Below are positions 716-19,864 of a stretch of 20,334 nt of DNA, one piece after another (the stretch's first letter is position 1; every line of letters begins with the position of its first letter). Origin of the DNA: Acidobacteriota bacterium (lineage in GTDB: Bacteria; Acidobacteriota; Vicinamibacteria; Vicinamibacterales; UBA8438); the NCBI GenBank assembly GCA_011523485.1, contig WTGR01000184.1:1-20334 (forward strand). Reading direction: 5' to 3'. Made by a program: the position numbers and the translations under genes. The notes below the pieces were generated by a model. It was not told the DNA's origin. It searched no databases and saw only the letters and a list, made by a program, of their open reading frames with translations.

Positions 716-1843
716 GGATTCCGACGGTGAGGTCGCCGAGGCAAATGACGGGGGCGCCGCACCAGGTCCGAGCAGGACTCCGCGAGGGGCACGGGGATCC
801 TCCTCGACGGCGGGAGCACCGACGCGATCACCGCAACCGACTGGAACAGCGGCCAACCTCGAGGACGCGCTGACTCGCGCCCCGACTTGTGGGGCAATTG
901 CGTGGGATACGTCGCGACGTCATCCGCAAGTAGTGACCAAGGGGCTCGTGGACACGGGGGACACCCGCCCGACGCCGCTCTGCGTGCCGAAGGCCCTGGT
1001 CACGCGGCTGCACGGCGTTGCGGTCACTGTGCGAGGCGCCGTACGGCGCCAGCGTGCGGCGCGGCGGCACAAAACGGCGAGCGCCGCCAGCCGCGGTTCG
1101 CTCCGGTGCGGTGGGTATCTCGGTGGCCGATGGGCCGGCGAGCTGGGCGTCCGAGGGATACCGCAGACGAGGGACGCTTGGGACCGGTGATCCCGACCGT
1201 TCGATGGCCGGCCGTCATTCCTGACGACGTAGCTGTACGGGCCCGGGCGACTCCGCCTCGGGTGTATACTGGCAGCGCCACAACACGCGGTCGCGGATCG
1301 ACGCTGACTCACGTCCGTCTGACGTCGGGTCGTCCACCCGATACAAGACCCGCCGCTCGGCGGGGAAACGGTGGGACCCTGCACTCGGACGTGAGGCGTG
1401 TTGTGGCAAACCGGCCCGGCGACCCCATCTTCGGGGCACGCCGGGTACTCCCGAGGGAGACGGAGCCATGGACGCCGCCCTGTCGAGCCCGGCCGTCCCG
1501 CGTATCGCGTACTCTGCTCGCCGGGTTGATCGCCTGCTGGCCGCCAACTCGTCGACTCGGAGCCGCCCTCGCGACCGCGCCCTCGCTGTAGCGGTGCTCC
1601 CGCCATCCGCGTCTCCGCAACACGTGCCGCCTTTCTCGTTGCCTCTGATGACCGGCGCGGTCGAGGGCGCGAGCCAGTGTCCGCACCGGTTCCGTTCCTT
1701 CCTCGGAGCAACGTCATCACGCTGCGAGTGTCGAGCCGCTGCGTCGCCCGATGGTGTGCTCCGCGATGGTCACATCCCGGCACGGCATGCCGCAGCCCGT
1801 CGAGCCGCCACGTCGCGCAGCCCGTCGAGGAGTTCACGCTGAT
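716..1843. other. Gene-poor stretch before the chaperone operon
   Basis: No convincing gene is seen on either strand, apart from the protease scrap annotated separately at 900-1030. Several long open frames exist, including one of 481 codons on the minus strand that runs into the GrpE-like gene. All are arginine/proline-rich and look like GC-driven shadows. The promoter of the chaperone operon presumably lies in the last few hundred bases, but I cannot point to a clear -35/-10 pair. Confidence 0.5.
900..1030 (+). pseudogene. Fragment of a retropepsin-like (clan AA) aspartic protease
   Basis: The frame around 927-1013 reads VVTKGLVDTGDTRPTPLC followed by VPKALVTRL. This matches the active-site segment of small bacterial retropepsin-like proteases, in which a hydrophobic-hydrophobic-DTG-A/D motif is followed by a short strand and a LP..LV.RLGL segment. 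The sequence degenerates on both sides, leaving only about 30 recognisable residues. The same segment occurs on the minus strand at about 19683-19765 with high nucleotide identity, so these are two relics of one gene family. The DTG triad is intact here, but without a flap or second half the piece cannot be a working enzyme. Confidence 0.5.
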
Positions 1844-2484: not shown

Positions 2485-2844
2485 ATGGCGAGCAACGACC
2501 AGAAGAACCGCATCTTCGGAATCGACCTGGGCACCACGTATTCCTGCATCGCGTACGTCAACGACGTGGGCAAGACGGAGGTCGTCCCCAACAGCGACGG
2601 CGACCTCACCACGCCTTCGGTGGTCTATTTCGAGGATTCCCACAACGTCGTCGTCGGCAAGACGGCCAAGGAGGAGCTGAAGACGAGTCCGGAGCGGGTC
2701 ATCTCCCTGGTCAACAGAAGCATGGGCGGTAGGGTCGAGAGCTGGCGCGCCGCCGGTAGGGGGCCGGTGGATGCTCCGTCGCTTTCGCTCCGGGCCGCAG
2801 TCCGGCTCCCGTGGACACGTTTCCAGCTCCCGCCTCGTCAGTAG
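2485..2844 (+). pseudogene. Hsp70 (DnaK-like) 5' part, cut off by antisense group II intron
   Basis: The ATG at 2485 follows a strong GGAGGAG ribosome site (2471-2477). Residues 10-20 (IFGIDLGTTYS) are the phosphate-1 loop of the Hsp70 ATPase domain, followed by the usual VPNSDGDLTTPSVVYF strand and VVVGKTAKEEL. Native sequence ends in VNRSMG at nucleotide 2727 plus the first base of codon 82 (2728). From 2729 the frame runs into intron sequence and stops at 2842-2844, giving about 120 residues, the last 38 foreign. The intron lies on the opposite strand to the gene, so it cannot be removed from the Hsp70 mRNA by splicing. The fragment lacks most of the nucleotide-binding domain and cannot act as a chaperone alone. 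The 3' part resumes at 5539. Confidence 0.9.
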
Positions 2845-2951
2845 GGTCGGGAGCTGGCGCGCCGCCGGTAGGGGCCGGTGGATGCTCCGGCGCTTTCGCG
2901 CCGGGCCGCAGTCCGGCTCCCGTGGGCACGTCTCCAGCTCCCGCCTCGTCA
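2729..2951 (-). repeat. Tandem 111/112-nt repeat: the 3' (domain VI) segments of introns A and B
   Basis: Copy 1 (2729-2840) and copy 2 (2841-2951) differ by five substitutions and one indel. They look like a simple tandem duplication but are the 3' end segments of introns A and B, brought side by side by nesting. Each forms a long stem in RNA: GGGAGCTGG pairs with CCAGCTCCC at the base (a G-to-A change, GAGAGC on the plus strand, weakens the outer pairs in A). The hairpin at the tip is a perfect seven-pair stem closed by GAAA in B. In A the two middle pairs have become adjacent G/A oppositions. The probable branch-point adenosine is the A seven nucleotides from the 3' end (GACCCTAC). Confidence 0.85.
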
Positions 2952-2983
2952 AACCCAGCATGCCGCTTTACGGCACTGGGCTT
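2952..2983 (-). ncRNA. Domain V of group II intron B
   Basis: On the minus strand the RNA folds as AGCCCAG paired with CUGGGUU, then UGCCG paired with CGGCA, with a two-nucleotide UG bulge on the 3' side and a terminal loop UAAAG. The AGC triad at the 5' base and the two-base 3' bulge are the catalytic hallmarks of domain V. It runs directly into the domain VI segment without interruption, which shows what the corresponding junction in intron A looked like before insertion. Confidence 0.88.
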
Positions 2984-3006
2984 TCCTGTTGGCTTCGTCC
3001 CAAGGT

Positions 3007-3153
3007 TTATGTGACCGTTCGAGCCGGGAGCGCTTTCGACAGGTCGCCCCGCCTACTCCACCTCTTCCGGCTGAACCCCAGTCGCCTGGAGCAGCCTTCC
3101 CCTCGAGATAAAGTCTCCTTCTCAGGTCTTGCACCGCTGGACGTCTTTATCAT
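3007..3153 (-). pseudogene. Deletion relic of the reverse transcriptase ORF in intron B
   Basis: The start codon context at 3153 is the same as that of the intact protein in intron A, and the relic begins MIKTSSG where A has MTKTSIG. After about 18 out-of-frame residues it reads RKRWSRR and ends KALPARTVT, matching the C-terminus of A (QRWSRR, then KALPA). About 390 codons containing the whole polymerase core are gone. The remaining 48-codon frame is a deletion scar with no expected function. It shows that B descends from an ORF-bearing copy. Confidence 0.8.
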
Positions 3154-3445
3154 CCCGTCCTTGCCTTCCGTGTTGTCGGAGACCCGCCAACAGCAGGGCG
3201 CCTTCGCTCCACGGGCATTACCCCGCCTCCACGCTACTACTCGCCCATCCGCCACCCTCTCGCCTTCGGCCCACTTCCCGGTGTTGCCGGTTATAGGGCC
3301 TACCTTGCTCCGGTGATTTCGCACCGGGGCGAGGAGGGCTTCTCCAGTTGCTCGGCCCGTCCTTGTCATCGTGCTGCCGCTATCACCCCGCCGAAGTGGG
3401 TCCGCCGTCTCAATCAGTTTTCGGCTGCCCATGCTGCCTTCGCCC

Positions 3446-3452
3446 CCGGGTT
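3446..3452 (-). other. Candidate exon-binding site 1 (EBS1) of intron B
   Basis: Minus-strand AACCCGG lies in domain I of intron B at the place where the otherwise near-identical copies A and B differ. It pairs over seven positions, one of them a G-U wobble, with CUGGGUU, the seven bases immediately upstream of B's insertion point (the 3' strand of A's domain V). A candidate EBS2, GUGU at 3473-3476, can pair with GCAC further upstream in the same target. Confidence 0.7.
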
Positions 3453-3663
3453 GCGGGCTCGGCCTTCGGAATACACTGTCGAGGCCACCTGTGCGTTCAC
3501 TTGCGTTACGGCCCGATGACTCGCAATCTCCCCAAGGGAGACCTTGTCGATAGGCTTCAGAAATTCGGTTTCCCTCCTCCCTGCTATCCAAGCTACGGGG
3601 CTCCTGACTCTTACCCCGGCGGGACTGTCTCCCGCTGAACAGACCAGCCTTCGCTGGACACAC

Positions 3664-3695
3664 AACCCAGCGTGCCGATTTCCGGCACTGGGCTT
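3664..3695 (-). ncRNA. Domain V of group II intron A (insertion target of intron B)
   Basis: On the minus strand AGCCCAG pairs with CUGGGUU and UGCCG with CGGCA, with a two-nucleotide CG bulge and a GAAAU loop. The AGC triad and bulge are as in functional domain V hairpins. Its last bases, GGGTT, abut the first base of intron B (GTGTG at 3663), so B sits at the boundary between domain V and the domain V-VI linker of A. Confidence 0.88.
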
Positions 3696-3730
3696 TCCTG
3701 TTGCCTTCGTCGCAAGGGTTATGCGGCCGT

Positions 3731-5026
3731 TCAGGCCGGGAGTGCTTTCGGCCGGTAGACGACCTGGTACTGTGAGAACAGCCCGAGCCGCGCATACAGC
3801 CACCGCCTACTCCACCTCTGCCAGCCGAAACCCGGGCGACCGCGCTGGTGCATCAAGTGTCGCCTCACCTTCTTCTCGACCCAGTCCTTCACGTAACCGA
3901 AGCAGCGGCTCGACTGTCCTATGCGGAAGTAGTTCGTCCAACCGCGCAGGATGGGGTTGATGAGCCGAACGACCCTCTCAACCGGTTGCGAGCGGTGCCG
4001 GCGAAACACCTCCTTGAGCCGACCGAGGAGGTTGGTGCGCGCCTTGGTTTTGGGCACACATGCAACTCCCCACTTGCCTCGCCGCGTTCTGGTGCGGCGA
4101 ATGTCGAACCCGAGGAAGGTGAAGCTGCCGCCATCCGCGAGATTCACGCGGCGCGTCTTGTCACGATTGAGTTCCACATCGAGTTTGGCCAATTCTTCCA
4201 GAAGCCGCGTGTATACGGCCTTTTCGAGCCACCGCCACCGGCGGTAACCGTCAACCAGGATCACCAGATCATCGGCGAAGCGAGCATACTCGATGTAGTA
4301 GTAGCGTCCCTGTCGGGTGACCTCTTTCGCCCGCTCCAGCATCTTGTCTACCTCGTTGAGATAGAGATTACTAAGCAACGGTGAAATTACCCCACCCTGG
4401 GGAACGCCCCGCTTGCCGCCGGCCTTGAGGATGAGCTTCAGCAGTCGAAGAACCTCGTCGTCATTCACGCGGGCCGCCACTTTTCCAAGCAGGATGTCGT
4501 GTCGAACCGTGTCGAAGTACGACGCCAAATCCACGTCTATCACCGTGGTCTTGTTCTTGACGACTGCGGTCGTCACCCGGTGCACCGCCTGATGGGCCGT
4601 GCGTTGGGGCCGGTACCCATATGAACCTTCCTGAAAGTCGGCCTCGAAGACAGGCTCCAGTATCAGCTTCAGCGCCCCCTGTACCACGCGGTCCCGGATG
4701 GTGGGAATTCCGAGGATGCGGACCTTGCCCTCATCCTTTGGTATCTCCACTTGCCGGTTCCCCGAGGGCCGGTAGGTCCGGGAAACCAGTTCGTCACGGA
4801 TGCCCGCCAGGAACGTCTCCAGGCCGGCATCCTCGATTGCCGCGAACGTCACACCGTCAATGCCCGCGGCACCGCCGTTGCGTCGCGCCATCTCGTAAGC
4901 CTCCCGGAGTGTCTCCGGTTTGCACACATGGACGTACAGCCCCCAGAAGCGCCAGTCCGGGTCAGCCTTCGCCTTGCGATATATTCTCCTTCTCAGGTCC
5001 TGCAAACCGATGGACGTCTTTGTCAT
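3731..5026 (-). CDS. ltrA: Group II intron reverse transcriptase/maturase
   Basis: A 431-residue intron-encoded protein that binds its intron RNA, helps it splice and copies it into DNA at the target. The reverse transcriptase blocks are visible: GIDGVT near 55, RPLGIP-like RILGIPTIRDRVVQ near 103-116, the first catalytic aspartate in VIDVDLASYFD (D166), GVPQGGVISPLLSNL near 208-221, and the active-site box YARFADDLVI with FADD at 250-253. The maturase (X) domain follows, with LINPILRGWTNYFR near 350-365. The protein ends at KALPA without an HNH endonuclease domain, so insertion would rely on a nicked or replicating target. The ATG at 5026 has AAGGA upstream. The frame is intact and all catalytic residues are present, so the protein may be active. 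It could also mobilise the ORF-less intron B. Confidence 0.96.
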   Translation of the reverse strand: MTKTSIGLQDLRRRIYRKAKADPDWRFWGLYVHVCKPETLREAYEMARRNGGAAGIDGVTFAAIEDAGLETFLAGIRDELVSRTYRPSGNRQVEIPKDEGKVRILGIPTIRDRVVQGALKLILEPVFEADFQEGSYGYRPQRTAHQAVHRVTTAVVKNKTTVIDVDLASYFDTVRHDILLGKVAARVNDDEVLRLLKLILKAGGKRGVPQGGVISPLLSNLYLNEVDKMLERAKEVTRQGRYYYIEYARFADDLVILVDGYRRWRWLEKAVYTRLLEELAKLDVELNRDKTRRVNLADGGSFTFLGFDIRRTRTRRGKWGVACVPKTKARTNLLGRLKEVFRRHRSQPVERVVRLINPILRGWTNYFRIGQSSRCFGYVKDWVEKKVRRHLMHQRGRPGFGWQRWSRRWLYARLGLFSQYQVVYRPKALPA

Positions 5027-5316
5027 CCCGTCCTTGCCTCCCGTGTTGTCGGAGAATCGTCAACAGCAGGGCGCCTTCGCTCCGCGGGCATTGCCCCGCT
5101 TCCGCGCTACTACACGCCCCTCCGCCACCCTCTCGCCTTCGGTTCACTTCCCGGTGTCGCCGGTTATAGAACCTACCTTGCTCCGACGATTTCGCGCCGG
5201 GGCGAGGAGGGCTTCTCCAGTTGCTCGGCCCGTCCTTGTCATCGTGCCGCCGCTGCCACCCCGCCGAAGTGGGTCGGCCGTCTCAATCAGGCTTCGACCA
5301 CCCATGCTGCCTTCGC

Positions 5317-5325
5317 CGTCCGGTT
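5317..5325 (-). other. Candidate exon-binding site 1 (EBS1) of intron A
   Basis: Minus-strand AACCGGACG lies in domain I of intron A at the position equivalent to the EBS1 of B. It pairs at eight of nine positions with CGUCCGGCU, the bases immediately upstream of the A insertion point in the Hsp70 gene (5547-5539 on the minus strand). A candidate EBS2, GUGCG at 5351-5347, is complementary to CGCAC just upstream in the exon. Confidence 0.7.
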
Positions 5326-5538
5326 GAGGGCTCGGCCTTCGGAATACGCACTCTCGAGGCCACTTGCGCGTTCATTTGCATTGCGGCCCGATGACTCGCG
5401 GTCTCCCCAAGGGAGACTTTGTCGATAGGCTTCAGAAATTCGGTTTCCCTCCTCCCTGCTATCCAAGCTACGGGGTTCCTGATTGTTGCCCCGGCGGGAC
5501 TGTCTCCCGCTGAACAGGCCAGCCTTCGCTGGACACAC

Positions 5539-6989
5539 AGCCGGACGTGCGGTTCTCCGGAGTCGCCGACTCCCCGCTGTCGCCGCAGGAGGTCTCGGCG
5601 CACATTCTGCGGAAGCTGGTCAAGGACGCGCAGGACTACACCCGGCAGGAGGAACCGATCAAGGACGTCGTCATCACCTGCCCCGCCTACTTCGGCTTCT
5701 CGCAGAAGGAGGCCACTCGCCAGGCCGGCGAGCTCGCCGGCCTGAACGTGCGGTACGTGATACCCGAACCGACGGCCGCCGCCATCTTCTACGGCATGGC
5801 CGAGGACACCTCCCGCGACCAGACGGTGCTCGTGTACGACCTCGGCGGCGGCACGTTCGACGTCACCGTCATCGAAGTCAACGCGGGCAACATCGAGGTG
5901 ATCTGCGTCGACGGCGACCACAACCTGGGCGGCGCCAACTGGGACGAGGACGTCGCCACCTGGCTTGCCGAGAAGTTCTCGGAAGAGCACGGCACGAAGT
6001 CGGGCGAGCTGATGGACTCGGACGAGACGTGGCAAGAGCTGCTCTACCTCGCGGAAACAGCCAAGCGATCACTGAGCTCCAAGACGAAACACTCGATCCG
6101 GGTGACGTACGGCACGGATCGTTCACGAATAGAGATGACCCGCGAGGACTTCGACACGATTACGAACGCCCGCCTCGAGAACACCATCATGCTCACGAGG
6201 AACGTCCTCGACAAGGCGAAAGCGAAGGGCCGGCACAGGGTCGACAAGATACTGCTGGTGGGCGGCTCGACCTACATGCCGCAGGTCCAGGAACGCCTGG
6301 AGAAGGAGTTTCCCTCCATCACCGACATCGGCCTGCTCGACCCCAACCAGGCCGTGGCCAAGGGGGCGGCGGTGTTCGGCTACAAGTGCTACCTCGACGA
6401 CGAAGTGATGAAGAAAGTGGCGGAGCAGACCGGCAGGGACACCTCGGGCGAGACCGCTGACGCGATTCCCGACGCGGTGCGGCAACGCGCCGAGGCGAGC
6501 GTCGCACTCGACCAGGGGCTGCAACTCACGCAGATGCAGAGCCTGACCCGCAAGACGATCCAGAACGTCACCTCGAAGAGCTTCGGCGTCGTAGCGGTGG
6601 ACGCGGCCGGCAGGGAGCACGTCGCCAACCTGATCGTCGTGGACGCGAAAGTCCCGGCCGACGTCACGGAGAAGTTCAGCACGGTAGCCGAGGGCCAGAC
6701 CAGCGTCAACGTGCGTCTCATGGAGAACATCGTGCGCCAGACCGGCTACGTCGACCTCGACGCGTCCGCGGAGATCGGCAACGCGGAGCTGCGATTCTCC
6801 CGGCCTCTGCCCAAGGGGTCCCCGCTCGAGTTCCGTTTCGCTCTGTCGGAAGACGGGCTCCTCTCGGTGCACGCGACGGACTTGACGACCGGAGGGGAGG
6901 TCGACATCCGGATCGAGACCGCCGCGATCCTGACGGCGGACGAGATCGAGAAGAAGAAGGCCCGGAGCACGGCCATCACGGTGACATGA
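5539..6989 (+). pseudogene. Hsp70 (DnaK-like) 3' part, severed from its start by the intron
   Basis: Resumes codon 82 (G+AG) after the intron and continues PDVRFSGVADSPLSPQEVSA. Joined to 2485-2728 it gives a 564-residue Hsp70. The region has the ADP-binding loop VYDLGGGTFDVTV (DLGGGT at 182-187 of the joined protein), the EPTAAAIFYG connector, the adenosine motif LLVGGSTYMPQVQERL (about 320-335) and a beta-sandwich substrate domain. It ends at AITVT soon after that domain, so the helical lid is essentially missing, as in several short bacterial Hsp70 paralogues. Alone it could start only at an internal GTG (5547) and would lack the phosphate-1 loop, so no ATPase activity is expected. The reading frame is otherwise undamaged, suggesting the insertion is recent. 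The J-like/TonB gene starts 52 bp after its stop. Confidence 0.9.
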
Positions 6990-7041
6990 GTCAACCGGCC
7001 GGGACCCAGGGCTGTCTGAACTTGCGCTCGAGGTGCAACAG

Positions 7042-8844
7042 ATGCTGCCGCCAAAGCTGAACCAACTGCTCGCAATTGTCGACTGCGTGGATCTCTATGA
7101 CTTTCTGAAGCTCGATCGGAGCTCTGGGCCGGCGGAGCTGAGCGCGGCGGCGCAAAAGGAATTCGACAGGATACAGAACAAGGGTCTGAGGGACGCCAGG
7201 TCGACCGCCAGGAAGGAGTTGACCGGGCTCTGCAAGTCGATCTTCAGGAACACGAGAACCAAGGCGGAGTACGACCGCGCGCTGGAAGAAGCCGAGGCGC
7301 GGCAAGAGGCCGGCGGCGGAGCCGGGCCCGCTCACCGGTTCGACGAGGCGACAGCCTTGCTCGAGAGCGGCTGGGCATTGCTGACGCAAGGACGGACTGA
7401 CGAGGCTCTCGCGGTTGCCAAGCGTCTCACCGGCGACCATCCAGACTACTCCAGGTTCCGGAGCAGATTGGCGGAGCTCCTGATAGCCGGCAGGAACTAC
7501 ATCGATGCCGTCGATTTCCTCTACTTGTGCGAGAACGAAGAGCCGGGCAACGACCAGTACAAGGCAATGCTGGGCACGGCCTTCGCCAGGGGCGGAACCG
7601 AGACATGGACGACACGCGACCAAGTGGTTTACGCGACGGCCGCCGAGCACGTCGCCGAGGCCAGGCAATGCCTGGTTCGCGCGCGCGAATGTGCGGAAGC
7701 TCTTGGCCGCCGTGACGAGGGGCTTTCTCAGGAGATCGCAACGCTGGACGAGAACATCAGAATTGCGACGCGAAGGAAATGGGATGGAAACGCGTTGGCG
7801 GCAATCGGGGGTCTCATCGTTCCCCAGATTCTCTTCGGCCTTCCAGACGGGTCCGCGGATGGGATGGCTCCTCTTCCATTCGATCTGTGGGGGTACTTGA
7901 TGCTGGCGTCGACACCGGTCTACGTGGTCTCCTCAATGGAGCCGCAATGGAAGTTCAACGACCGGGCGCTGCGCGGACCGCAAGTCCAGCAGGCGGAGGG
8001 GTGCCTGTGGTATCTGGTGAAGTCCTACCTGACCTGCATGCTTCTTCCGGCAGTTGCGGCGTGGAAGTTCTGTACAAACATCTTGCCTGCCTTGACGGAC
8101 CGCCGTCCGGATACGTCGGCGCAGGATGGAAAGCCGGACGCTGAGCCCCTGGGCCGCGGCAGCGCGACCCTCGTTCTGATCAGCCTTGCCGTAGTCGTAG
8201 CGGTGGTCGTGTACAGCCTTGTGTCGGTACCCAGTGAGCCAACCGGCGCAACCGGGGCTCCACGAGAGTCGTCGCGCGATTCCGGCGACATCTCGAATGG
8301 AGTCCAGCCGGAGAGTGGCGAACCACCATCGAGATCAGAGAACCGGCCTCCGGAGCCATCGACGGACCGGGAAGGCACGCAACCTTCTCCCGCCGGCGAT
8401 GCCGACCGGACAGCGGCGACTGCGGATGGCCCGGAACCGGGCAGAAGCACTACCGCCCCGCCGACGGCGCCGGTACCGGAAGATTCGAGTGCCGACGGAG
8501 CGGATTCGCTCGCACCAGCACTCTCGGCGACTGCTACCCAGCCGCAGGTTCCGCAGGAGCCCGTCCGCGTGGGCGGCAACGTGACGGCGCCGACCAAGGT
8601 ACGCCACGTGCCTCCGGTCTATCCGGCGGCGGCGCGACAGATGCGGGCACAGGGCGTGGTGATTCTCGAGGCAGTCATCGGAACCACGGGAGAAGTCGAG
8701 ACGGTGAGAGTGATCCGCTCGGTGCCCCTGCTCGACGATGCGGCGATCGCCGCGGTGCGGCAGTGGCGGTACACGCCCACATTGCTGAACAACGTGCCGG
8801 TGCCGGTGGTCATGAGCGTCACCGTCAACTTCACGCTGCAGTAG
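7042..8844 (+). CDS. J-like/TPR membrane protein with TonB C-terminal domain
   Basis: A 600-residue mosaic. Residues 13-85 resemble a J domain (DLYDFLKLDRSSGPAELSAA, later TKAEYDRAL), but the HPD loop that stimulates Hsp70 is absent. Residues 90-230 form helical TPR-like pairs (ALLESGWALLTQGRTDEALA). Hydrophobic segments lie near 250-270, 281-300 and 326-345, with a strong membrane helix at 375-397. A 110-residue Pro/Ser/Glu-rich spacer leads to a TonB C-terminal domain (507-600: PPVYPAAARQMRAQGVVILE, then AIAAVRQWRYTPTLLNNVPV). TonB domains contact outer-membrane partners from the periplasm, so the J/TPR part should face the cytoplasm. The ATG at 7042 is preferred because GAGG lies eight bases upstream. 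An in-frame GTG at 7033 is the alternative. It follows the Hsp70 gene by 52 bp, which suggests it tethers or senses that chaperone. Its function is inference. Confidence 0.85.
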   Translation: MLPPKLNQLLAIVDCVDLYDFLKLDRSSGPAELSAAAQKEFDRIQNKGLRDARSTARKELTGLCKSIFRNTRTKAEYDRALEEAEARQEAGGGAGPAHRFDEATALLESGWALLTQGRTDEALAVAKRLTGDHPDYSRFRSRLAELLIAGRNYIDAVDFLYLCENEEPGNDQYKAMLGTAFARGGTETWTTRDQVVYATAAEHVAEARQCLVRARECAEALGRRDEGLSQEIATLDENIRIATRRKWDGNALAAIGGLIVPQILFGLPDGSADGMAPLPFDLWGYLMLASTPVYVVSSMEPQWKFNDRALRGPQVQQAEGCLWYLVKSYLTCMLLPAVAAWKFCTNILPALTDRRPDTSAQDGKPDAEPLGRGSATLVLISLAVVVAVVVYSLVSVPSEPTGATGAPRESSRDSGDISNGVQPESGEPPSRSENRPPEPSTDREGTQPSPAGDADRTAATADGPEPGRSTTAPPTAPVPEDSSADGADSLAPALSATATQPQVPQEPVRVGGNVTAPTKVRHVPPVYPAAARQMRAQGVVILEAVIGTTGEVETVRVIRSVPLLDDAAIAAVRQWRYTPTLLNNVPVPVVMSVTVNFTLQ

Positions 8845-19472: not shown

Positions 19473-19864
19473 TCAGACCCGGATTCCGGTGCTCGGCCGC
19501 AGCGTGCGAGTGACGGGATCCGGGACCATATCGAGAACGCGCAGCGTCATGGAGGCGATGCGGACGGGACTGCCGGGCGGTCCAACCACGCACTCGCCGA
19601 AGGTGCGTCGGCCGCGGATCCGGGTTGTGACGGGGCCGGCGCAGCGCCGTTCGTCCCACCGCCGATCCCGCTCCCGCAGTCGCAGCCGCGTGACCAGGTC
19701 CTCCGGCACGCGGAGAGGCGTCGGTCGGCTGTCGCCCATGTCCATGAGCCCTCGGTCACTACTCGGGGGACGCCGGCCGCGCAAGCGCGGCCGAGCCGAG
19801 CCGTCACCGCCTCGTCGGCAGCGTTCTCAAGGACCACGCTGACGCGGATTGTTTCGCTCATCAC
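19473..19864 (-). pseudogene. Retropepsin-like (clan AA) aspartic protease, frameshifted
   Basis: Begins MMSETIRVSVVLENAADEAV in one frame up to RVVTEG. One base is then missing (GGGCTC where the copy at 933 has GGGGCTC, near 19746-19752). The next frame continues LMDMGDSRPTPLRVPEDLVT, then GRRTFGECVVGPPGSPV and MTLRVLDMVPDPVTRTLRP to a stop at 19473. This is the whole layout of the small bacterial protease family: N-terminal strand, active-site loop, LP..LV.RL helix, the VGPP segment and a C-terminal LDLVPD motif. The catalytic DTG has become DMG, so the enzyme is probably dead regardless of the shift. Repaired length is about 130 residues. It resembles the scrap at 900-1030 on the opposite strand. 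Confidence 0.65.

Follow-up and report, generated by a model that had tools for sequence, protein, structure and literature searches.

How does a group II intron come to lie inside another group II intron, precisely between domains V and VI of its host, and is such an arrangement a one-off or the product of a recurrent kind of homing? The question is raised by a stretch of 20,334 nucleotides (nt) from an Acidobacteriota bacterium (contig WTGR01000184.1; the whole stretch analysed is referred to here as the window), in which an Hsp70-like gene is interrupted by two introns on the minus strand, a larger outer one and a smaller inner one nested within it. We consider the pair to be, very probably, a group II twintron derived from a mobile intron lineage that favors the 3' strand of other introns' domain V as its DNA target. 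The sequence evidence for an apparent preference of this lineage for a domain V landing site is strong. The boundaries of the two introns, their nesting, the fit between exon-binding sites (EBS) and intron-binding sites (IBS), the recurrence of the arrangement in other genomes and the existence of uninterrupted sites can all be read from the sequences. The site occupied in the window is a recurrent kind of landing site of its intron lineage, not a one-off.

The nested architecture had been proposed in an initial annotation made from the window alone, and its description of the ends holds at every position: on the minus strand, the start GTGTGTCC is present at 5538 (outer) and 3663 (inner), and the end CCCTAC at 2729 (outer) and 2841 (inner), giving both copies GTGTG...AC termini that correspond to the GUGYG start and AY end of group II introns. 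The inner element divides the sequence GCTGGGTT/TGACGAGG of the outer one exactly, as had been claimed, with the undivided form standing at the inner element's own 3' end, and the apparent tandem repeat of 111 and 112 nt, which had been put down to the nesting, is accounted for in full by the inner domain VI (2951-2841, 111 nt) followed by the outer domain VI (2840-2729, 112 nt). The annotation had also placed the inner intron at the domain V edge of a sibling; the insertion point can in fact be fixed to the base, at the boundary between domains V and VI (D5/D6), where the inner intron follows the final nucleotide of the 31-nt domain V hairpin and precedes domain VI. One complete intron lies within another, which is what defines a twintron; the nested structure is real, and chance is excluded.

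A covariance model, the check that the annotation had itself proposed, bears out the two copies: RF02003, the Rfam model of group II domains I to IV (D1-D4), matches at 3637-3501 with 125.7 bits (inner) and at 5512-5376 with 121.0 bits (outer), against a cut-off of 49 bits. Across 2600-5700, Rfam gives no family besides RF02003 at gathering score, and none for the domain VI extension. Both domains V are hairpins with the AGC triad and a 2-nt bulge, and both domains VI carry a bulged A 7 nt from the 3' end, within the 7-8 nt expected of group II introns. Folded alone, the inner domains V and VI reach a z of -6.45 (0 of 200 shuffles as low), the outer domain V -3.65 (0 of 200) and the outer domain VI -2.97 (2 of 200), and over 22 distinct family rows, both copies included, 264 of 264 cells of the domain V model are paired, with double changes at nine of its 12 pairs. 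Two other assignments were tried and set aside: one took the large hairpin of domain VI for domain V and was abandoned when canonical hairpins were recognised at 3694-3664 and 2982-2952, and the other, a circularly permuted intron of the kind treated in PMC8637638, is ruled out by the complete 5'-to-3' domain order. Domain VI has a long distal insert, of which at least two sequence types are common to distant loci: the first is present in the window at 2841-2951 and 2729-2840 and in locus L066 at 1873-2045 (GGGAGCCGGACTG.GGCCC), and the second in L002, L020 and L024, with a similar form in L006.

Identity between the inner and the outer copy is 90.1% in the first 576 aligned positions and 90.7% in the last 205, and the two are colinear apart from gaps in domain IV (inner 1-572, 585-618 and 620-823 against 1-576, 1706-1740 and 1783-1987 of the outer without its insert); given this divergence of about a tenth, the inner intron is a sibling and not a fresh copy of the outer one. 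The reverse transcriptase is present in the outer intron and deleted from the inner, a point the initial annotation had not made. The 431-residue outer enzyme is assigned RVT_1 and GIIM only by Pfam, with no endonuclease domain found. The annotation's argument that the outer intron would be able to splice only after the inner one has left is a sound deduction from this arrangement. The tandem domains VI and second domain V could instead be understood as an array for alternative splicing, offering the outer D1-D4 a choice of 3' ends, and the two tandem domain VI units, the near identity of the inner D5-D6 with the outer, and the precedent of Clostridium tetani C.te.I1, in which repeated domain V/VI units are described as giving several 3' splice sites (PMC4424553), all point that way. 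Against this, the units are separated by an entire second D1-D4 that has a start of its own, many other host introns are interrupted at this same junction, and no minus-strand coding frame to diversify was identified, no systematic search having been made; we regard such an array as quite improbable. The features of the twintron, as we prefer to read it, and of the gene it interrupts are collected in the table.

Table. Coordinates of the nested introns and of the interrupted Hsp70-like gene in the window
Feature	Position	Strand	Basis
Hsp70-like gene, 5' part	2485..2728	+	Pfam HSP70, E 7.9e-17 for 2485-2727
Outer group II intron, 2810 nt (1987 nt without inner)	2729..5538	-	GTGTG...TAC ends, RF02003 match, reverse transcriptase reading frame, domains V and VI
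Outer domain VI, with the inner intron between it and its domain V; bulged A at 2735	2729..2840	-	Fold
Inner group II intron (823 nt), with deletion of the reverse transcriptase	2841..3663	-	RF02003, 125.7 bits; colinear with outer save for domain IV gaps
Inner domain VI, bulged A at 2847	2841..2951	-	Fold
Inner domain V	2952..2982	-	31-nt hairpin; fold and family comparison
Inner EBS1, AACCCG (intron position 212)	3447..3452	-	6/6 (one G-U) to sibling domain V end TGGGTT
Outer domain V, ends at insertion point	3664..3694	-	31-nt hairpin; 12 pairs kept in 22/22 family rows
Outer reverse transcriptase/maturase, intact, 431 residues	3731..5026	-	TIGR04416, 371.5 bits (cut-off 300); Pfam RVT_1 and GIIM
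Outer EBS1, AACCGG (intron position 214)	5320..5325	-	Family covariation
Outer EBS2, AGTGCG	5347..5352	-	GTGCG pairs with target CGCAC, 5/5, best register
Outer 5' target in hsp70, domain V look-alike	5539..5552	-	CCGCACGTCCGGCT, one base off domain V end CCGCACGTCCGGTT
Hsp70-like gene, 3' part	5539..6989	+	Pfam HSP70, E 1.7e-80 for 5547-6989

The recurrence of the landing site was assessed by scanning the outer reverse transcriptase against a species-level genome collection, from which the best 80 of 86 relatives were fetched (loci with handles such as L001); the intron 5' end was placed at the chosen cut in 52 of these 80 loci, the other 28 standing outside the counts. In 24 of the 52, as in the inner copy of the window, the intron starts directly after a sequence with domain V architecture, a score that only 317 of 39,936 random positions reach at the same threshold. 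L001, with six upstream bases only, falls outside this test. These 24 loci come from phyla among which are Pseudomonadota, Thermodesulfobacteriota, Myxococcota, Bacteroidota, Chlorobiota, Chloroflexota and Patescibacteria.

The sequence upstream of these domains V belongs in many cases to another group II intron. At 13 of the 24 loci the reverse transcriptase open reading frame (ORF) of such a host ends 25-68 nt before the insert, and at a fourteenth it ends 362 nt before it; of the 28 remaining starts that could be assessed (in 27 loci, plus the outer copy of the window), none has such a reverse transcriptase upstream on the same strand, some of them having little upstream DNA. When 16 of the domain V loci were scanned with Rfam, a D1-D4 core was found upstream of the insert in ten, belonging to RF01999 (L017, L020, L034, L037, L042, L051), RF02003 (L018, L021), RF02001 (L011, and also L051) or RF02005 (L057), and none reached the gathering cut-off at L002, L006, L019, L048, L049 and L052. 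On the other side of the insert, 20 domain V sites offered enough sequence to look for an orphan domain VI, and at 12 of them one was recognised by a structural rule that 70 of 5,987 random stretches pass and that is also passed at five of 23 other sites: L001 (no upstream sequence), L004 (3' part of domain V only), L014 and L071 (no recognised domain V) and L046 (at threshold). In a control on 18 introns of the host families, none has a D5-shaped sequence before a candidate start (best score 6), their 5' ends not being independently placed and 3 of the 18 lacking a candidate start. Deeper nests may occur as well. In L019 (150-3600), a family intron that encodes a reverse transcriptase (739 bits) contains another family intron behind its family-type domain V, probably making a triple nest, and the domain VI that follows is of a different type, as though recombination had removed one of two tandem domains VI; in L057 (1017-4117), the match to the invader's reverse transcriptase ends after residue 253 and is followed by an RF01999-type core with a reverse transcriptase ORF, and the invading intron seems to have been invaded in its turn.

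Between EBS1 and IBS1, the six exon bases before the intron, 200 of 216 pairs are formed over 36 distinct combinations, compared with 119.0 for shuffled partners (standard deviation 6.3, highest 143 in 10,000), EBS1 having been identified by covariation and the shuffle taking no account of kinship among rows. The fit holds for both kinds of exon, domain V and non-domain V, and EBS2 matches a CGCAC-type stretch of domain V in many members of the family. The outer EBS1 of the window, AACCGG, would pair fully with a domain V whose last bases are CCGGTT, and pairs 5/6 with the hsp70 site CCGGCT; the 14 bases of that site are one base off such a domain V, and recur unchanged in L076 as the host domain V end that precedes the insert. 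We read the outer hsp70 site as a probable domain V look-alike.

Complete replicons provide a second set of cases. From 26 records matching at E up to 1e-100, 11 loci in 10 records were taken, and in complete circular plasmid records eight of the ten loci with a placed 5' end start, judged by eye, after a domain V: these are from Cupriavidus necator C39, Paraburkholderia phymatum STM815, Caballeronia sp. SBC2, Bradyrhizobium barranii (three loci), B. japonicum S06B-BJ and B. diazoefficiens NK6. The other two of the ten (L110, L111) lie outside domain V, and the eleventh locus (L112) has no placed start. The 3' flank is domain VI-like in seven of the eight, the exception being L106, where the intron end runs straight into GTGTGTCCAGG, apparently the start of another family intron or fragment. 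Five Bradyrhizobium loci with the same EBS1 occupy four different host domains V, and uninterrupted D5-D6 sequences of the same host kind are found in L121 (73% reverse transcriptase identity with the host of L021) and, in samples of two phyla, in L095 and L097. A 280-kb B. japonicum plasmid typed as conjugative (NZ_CP066353.1; L108, L126, L130, L132) carries three D5/D6-junction insertions in different host introns. These plasmids also bear on the proposal that two neighboring introns of the window were joined by misassembly or recombination to look nested. Its repeats are long enough to lend that idea some color, but the break falls on the exact D5/D6 base, the inner EBS1 fits its site 6/6, and the same arrangement is found in complete circular plasmids of Caballeronia, Paraburkholderia phymatum, Cupriavidus necator and Bradyrhizobium; we take an artefact to be extremely unlikely, and the nesting to be genuine.

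Besides the kinship of rows mentioned for the EBS1 shuffle, several observations weigh against homing to domain V as the habit of this lineage. A recognised domain V is absent before the start in 27 of the 52 loci and in the outer copy of the window, and the lineage therefore prefers a domain V target without being bound to it. On the reverse transcriptase tree, which was built without the window's own protein, domain V targeting shows only weak clustering (10 changes against a shuffled mean of 13.0, a value reached or undercut in 22 of 500 shuffles). One of the six bases of the outer EBS1 is mismatched at the hsp70 site, and the inner EBS2 fits 4/5 in its best register. At six of the 20 domain V sites assessed (L011, L020, L033, L034, L044, L051) the orphan domain VI was recognised by eye only, and at two (L049, L076) it was not recognised. 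A junction pattern run over two phylum samples of 395 genomes each found 6 and 2 genomes, with 3 and 2 for the reversed control, and inspection by eye of the seven new matches gave two true junctions (L096, L099), the two uninterrupted D5-D6 sequences already named and three unrelated sequences. Apart from these observations, the viral_contigs set yielded no match to the full domain V pattern, two stretches (L101, L102) with the short junction pattern in which no intron start was placed by rule, and, in protein scans, no relative of the window enzyme or too few for a control. Given the 10 changes that domain V targeting needs on the tree, a single origin of domain V homing is unsupported and was dropped. 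Eight of the 27 loci outside domain V share an identical upstream sequence in one Bradyrhizobium erythrophlei genome (L026, L027, L028, L036, L040, L050, L053, L055), with a site ending ATATGGAT and an EBS1, ATCCAT, that pairs with it 6/6.

A lineage that homes to domain V carries a domain V of its own, and in the part read by EBS1 the family's own version has flipped pairs with pairing kept: its consensus is ...GCTGCGTT (22 rows), against ...GTACGGTT (15 rows) for the hosts. Across 18 distinct domain V-targeting members, EBS1 forms 5.6 of 6 pairs with the actual site and 3.3 of 6 with the member's own domain V, and 16 of the 18 form at most four pairs with the latter. The set consists of the 25 domain V-targeting copies minus seven, of which five were dropped, their own domain V being not or poorly found (L048, L052, L057, L069, L076), and two merged, their rows being identical to counted ones (L037, and L024, which equals the non-domain-V L023). 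The two exceptions, L019 and the inner copy of the window, pair 6/6 with their own domain V and both sit in a family-type domain V; this fit follows in part from how they are inserted, and we accordingly offer self-exclusion of the family through its own domain V as a hypothesis and not as a result. On balance we lean towards a cross-phylum lineage that is parasitic on group II introns by way of domain V, the piece whose alteration would cost them most, and that may be protected from itself by the flipped pairs, which would preserve the hairpin and impair its fit to the lineage's own EBS1, the EBS1 of L019 and of the window's inner copy having been retuned to invade their own kind.

The course of events in the window would then be the following. 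The spliced intron RNA would bind the 3' half of a domain V (type CGCAC-GT-ACGGTT) by pairing through EBS1 and EBS2, and would reverse splice precisely between the host's domains V and VI, leaving the host domain V upstream and an orphan domain VI downstream. The outer copy would have landed antisense in the Hsp70-like gene at a chance look-alike of this target, breaking the gene, and a sibling without a reverse transcriptase, whose EBS1 fits the family's recoded domain V, would then have entered the outer copy at D5/D6, presumably served in trans by the enzyme of the outer or of another copy. In RNA of the minus strand the inner intron would leave first, rejoining domains V and VI, after which the outer could splice by the branching route; this order, the help in trans and any present activity of the nested pair are what we infer from the arrangement. 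The missing reverse transcriptase of the inner copy is not disqualifying, since ORF-less group II introns are known (PMC2882425).

That the pair is antisense to the Hsp70-like gene, a fact absent from the initial annotation, means that splicing cannot restore the mRNA of the gene. Joined at the insertion, 2485-2728 and 5539-6989 form one open frame (...RSMG|EPDVRF...), and the search for an empty site in related genomes that had been suggested yields two homologues without intron at the junction: P0001 is uninterrupted through it, with 89% identity over the full length, and P0041 is uninterrupted with 98% identity over 70% of the length, its C-terminal part differing. As a near-identical hsp70 allele without the insertion exists, we infer that the insertion is recent. 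The pair might nonetheless be a dead fossil, made by retrohoming, with neither intron splicing now and no consequence beyond the broken hsp70, and its antisense position and the reverse transcriptase lost from the inner copy would suit this; yet the outer reverse transcriptase is intact, all 12 pairs are kept in both domains V and the bulged A in both domains VI, and the EBS1 and EBS2 fits are retained (outer 5/6 and 5/5, inner 6/6 and 4/5), which leaves a fossil unlikely, though a good deal more credible than an artefact, next to a twintron of a domain V-homing lineage. As to its surroundings, the interrupted gene is flanked by a GrpE-like ORF (1751-2434) and a protein with TPR and TonB C-terminal domains (7033-8844), and the three may form a small cluster of chaperone genes. 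Near the two ends of the window (942-1011 and 19682-19751) stands an inverted repeat of 70 nt with 87% complementarity.

Introns within introns have been met before, and the site is what sets the present case apart. The nested introns of the archaeon Methanosarcina acetivorans reportedly have intron ORFs as their targets, to go by the title of the original paper, whereas the target here is the catalytic domain V. Repeated site-specific homing into other group II introns is common to the two systems as far as the accounts compared go (PMC4424553, PMC2882425). The TeI3-in-TeI4 twintrons of Thermosynechococcus elongatus resemble the window in combining an ORF-less intron with a related ORF-bearing one around it; according to the account compared (PMC2882425), their ORF-less introns have lost the ORF from domain IV, and the TeI4c protein splices and mobilises both outer and inner intron. 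Unlike the window's D5/D6 site, theirs is in domain IV, with the first ATG of the ORF on one side and the second on the other (PMC2882425). The window's kind of site recurs in host introns of other families across phyla. In the bacterial group II twintron of Trichodesmium erythraeum, sequential splicing has been demonstrated; there, as described in PMC4649490, the inner intron lies in domain I of its host and splicing yields a putatively functional mRNA, whereas the pair in the window meets at D5/D6 and is antisense to its gene. Hamiltonella defensa c-Ha.de.I1 likewise has three copies within copies of the same intron at a specific position, the domain holding that position not being named in the account compared (PMC3522654). 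Euglenid plastid twintrons, too, are introns within introns that are removed successively; unlike the introns of the window they are organellar and degenerate, and the accounts compared describe no domain V homing by EBS pairing (PMC5572947, PMC3534033). A literature search, on the portions of the sources available to it, returned no description of domain V homing or of bacterial insertion at the D5/D6 junction, some likely papers lying outside that search, so that absence from print is unproven.

The choice of target has consequences of its own. Domain V, as summarised in the portions compared of PMC4028801 and PMC4424553, is the part of a group II intron that is catalytic and highly conserved, and an element that lands there would therefore have a target wherever such introns live, and one that is hard for its hosts to change. 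Insertions of this kind split the host's domain V from its domain VI, which matters for annotation, and the authors of PMC8919778, in the portion compared, describe their own pipeline as unable to detect the outer intron of nested pairs. Homing to domain V would offer a natural case of a parasite on a selfish RNA, together with a possible rule by which such a parasite avoids inserting into itself, and the nested pair of the window would provide a directly testable model of ordered splicing in bacteria.

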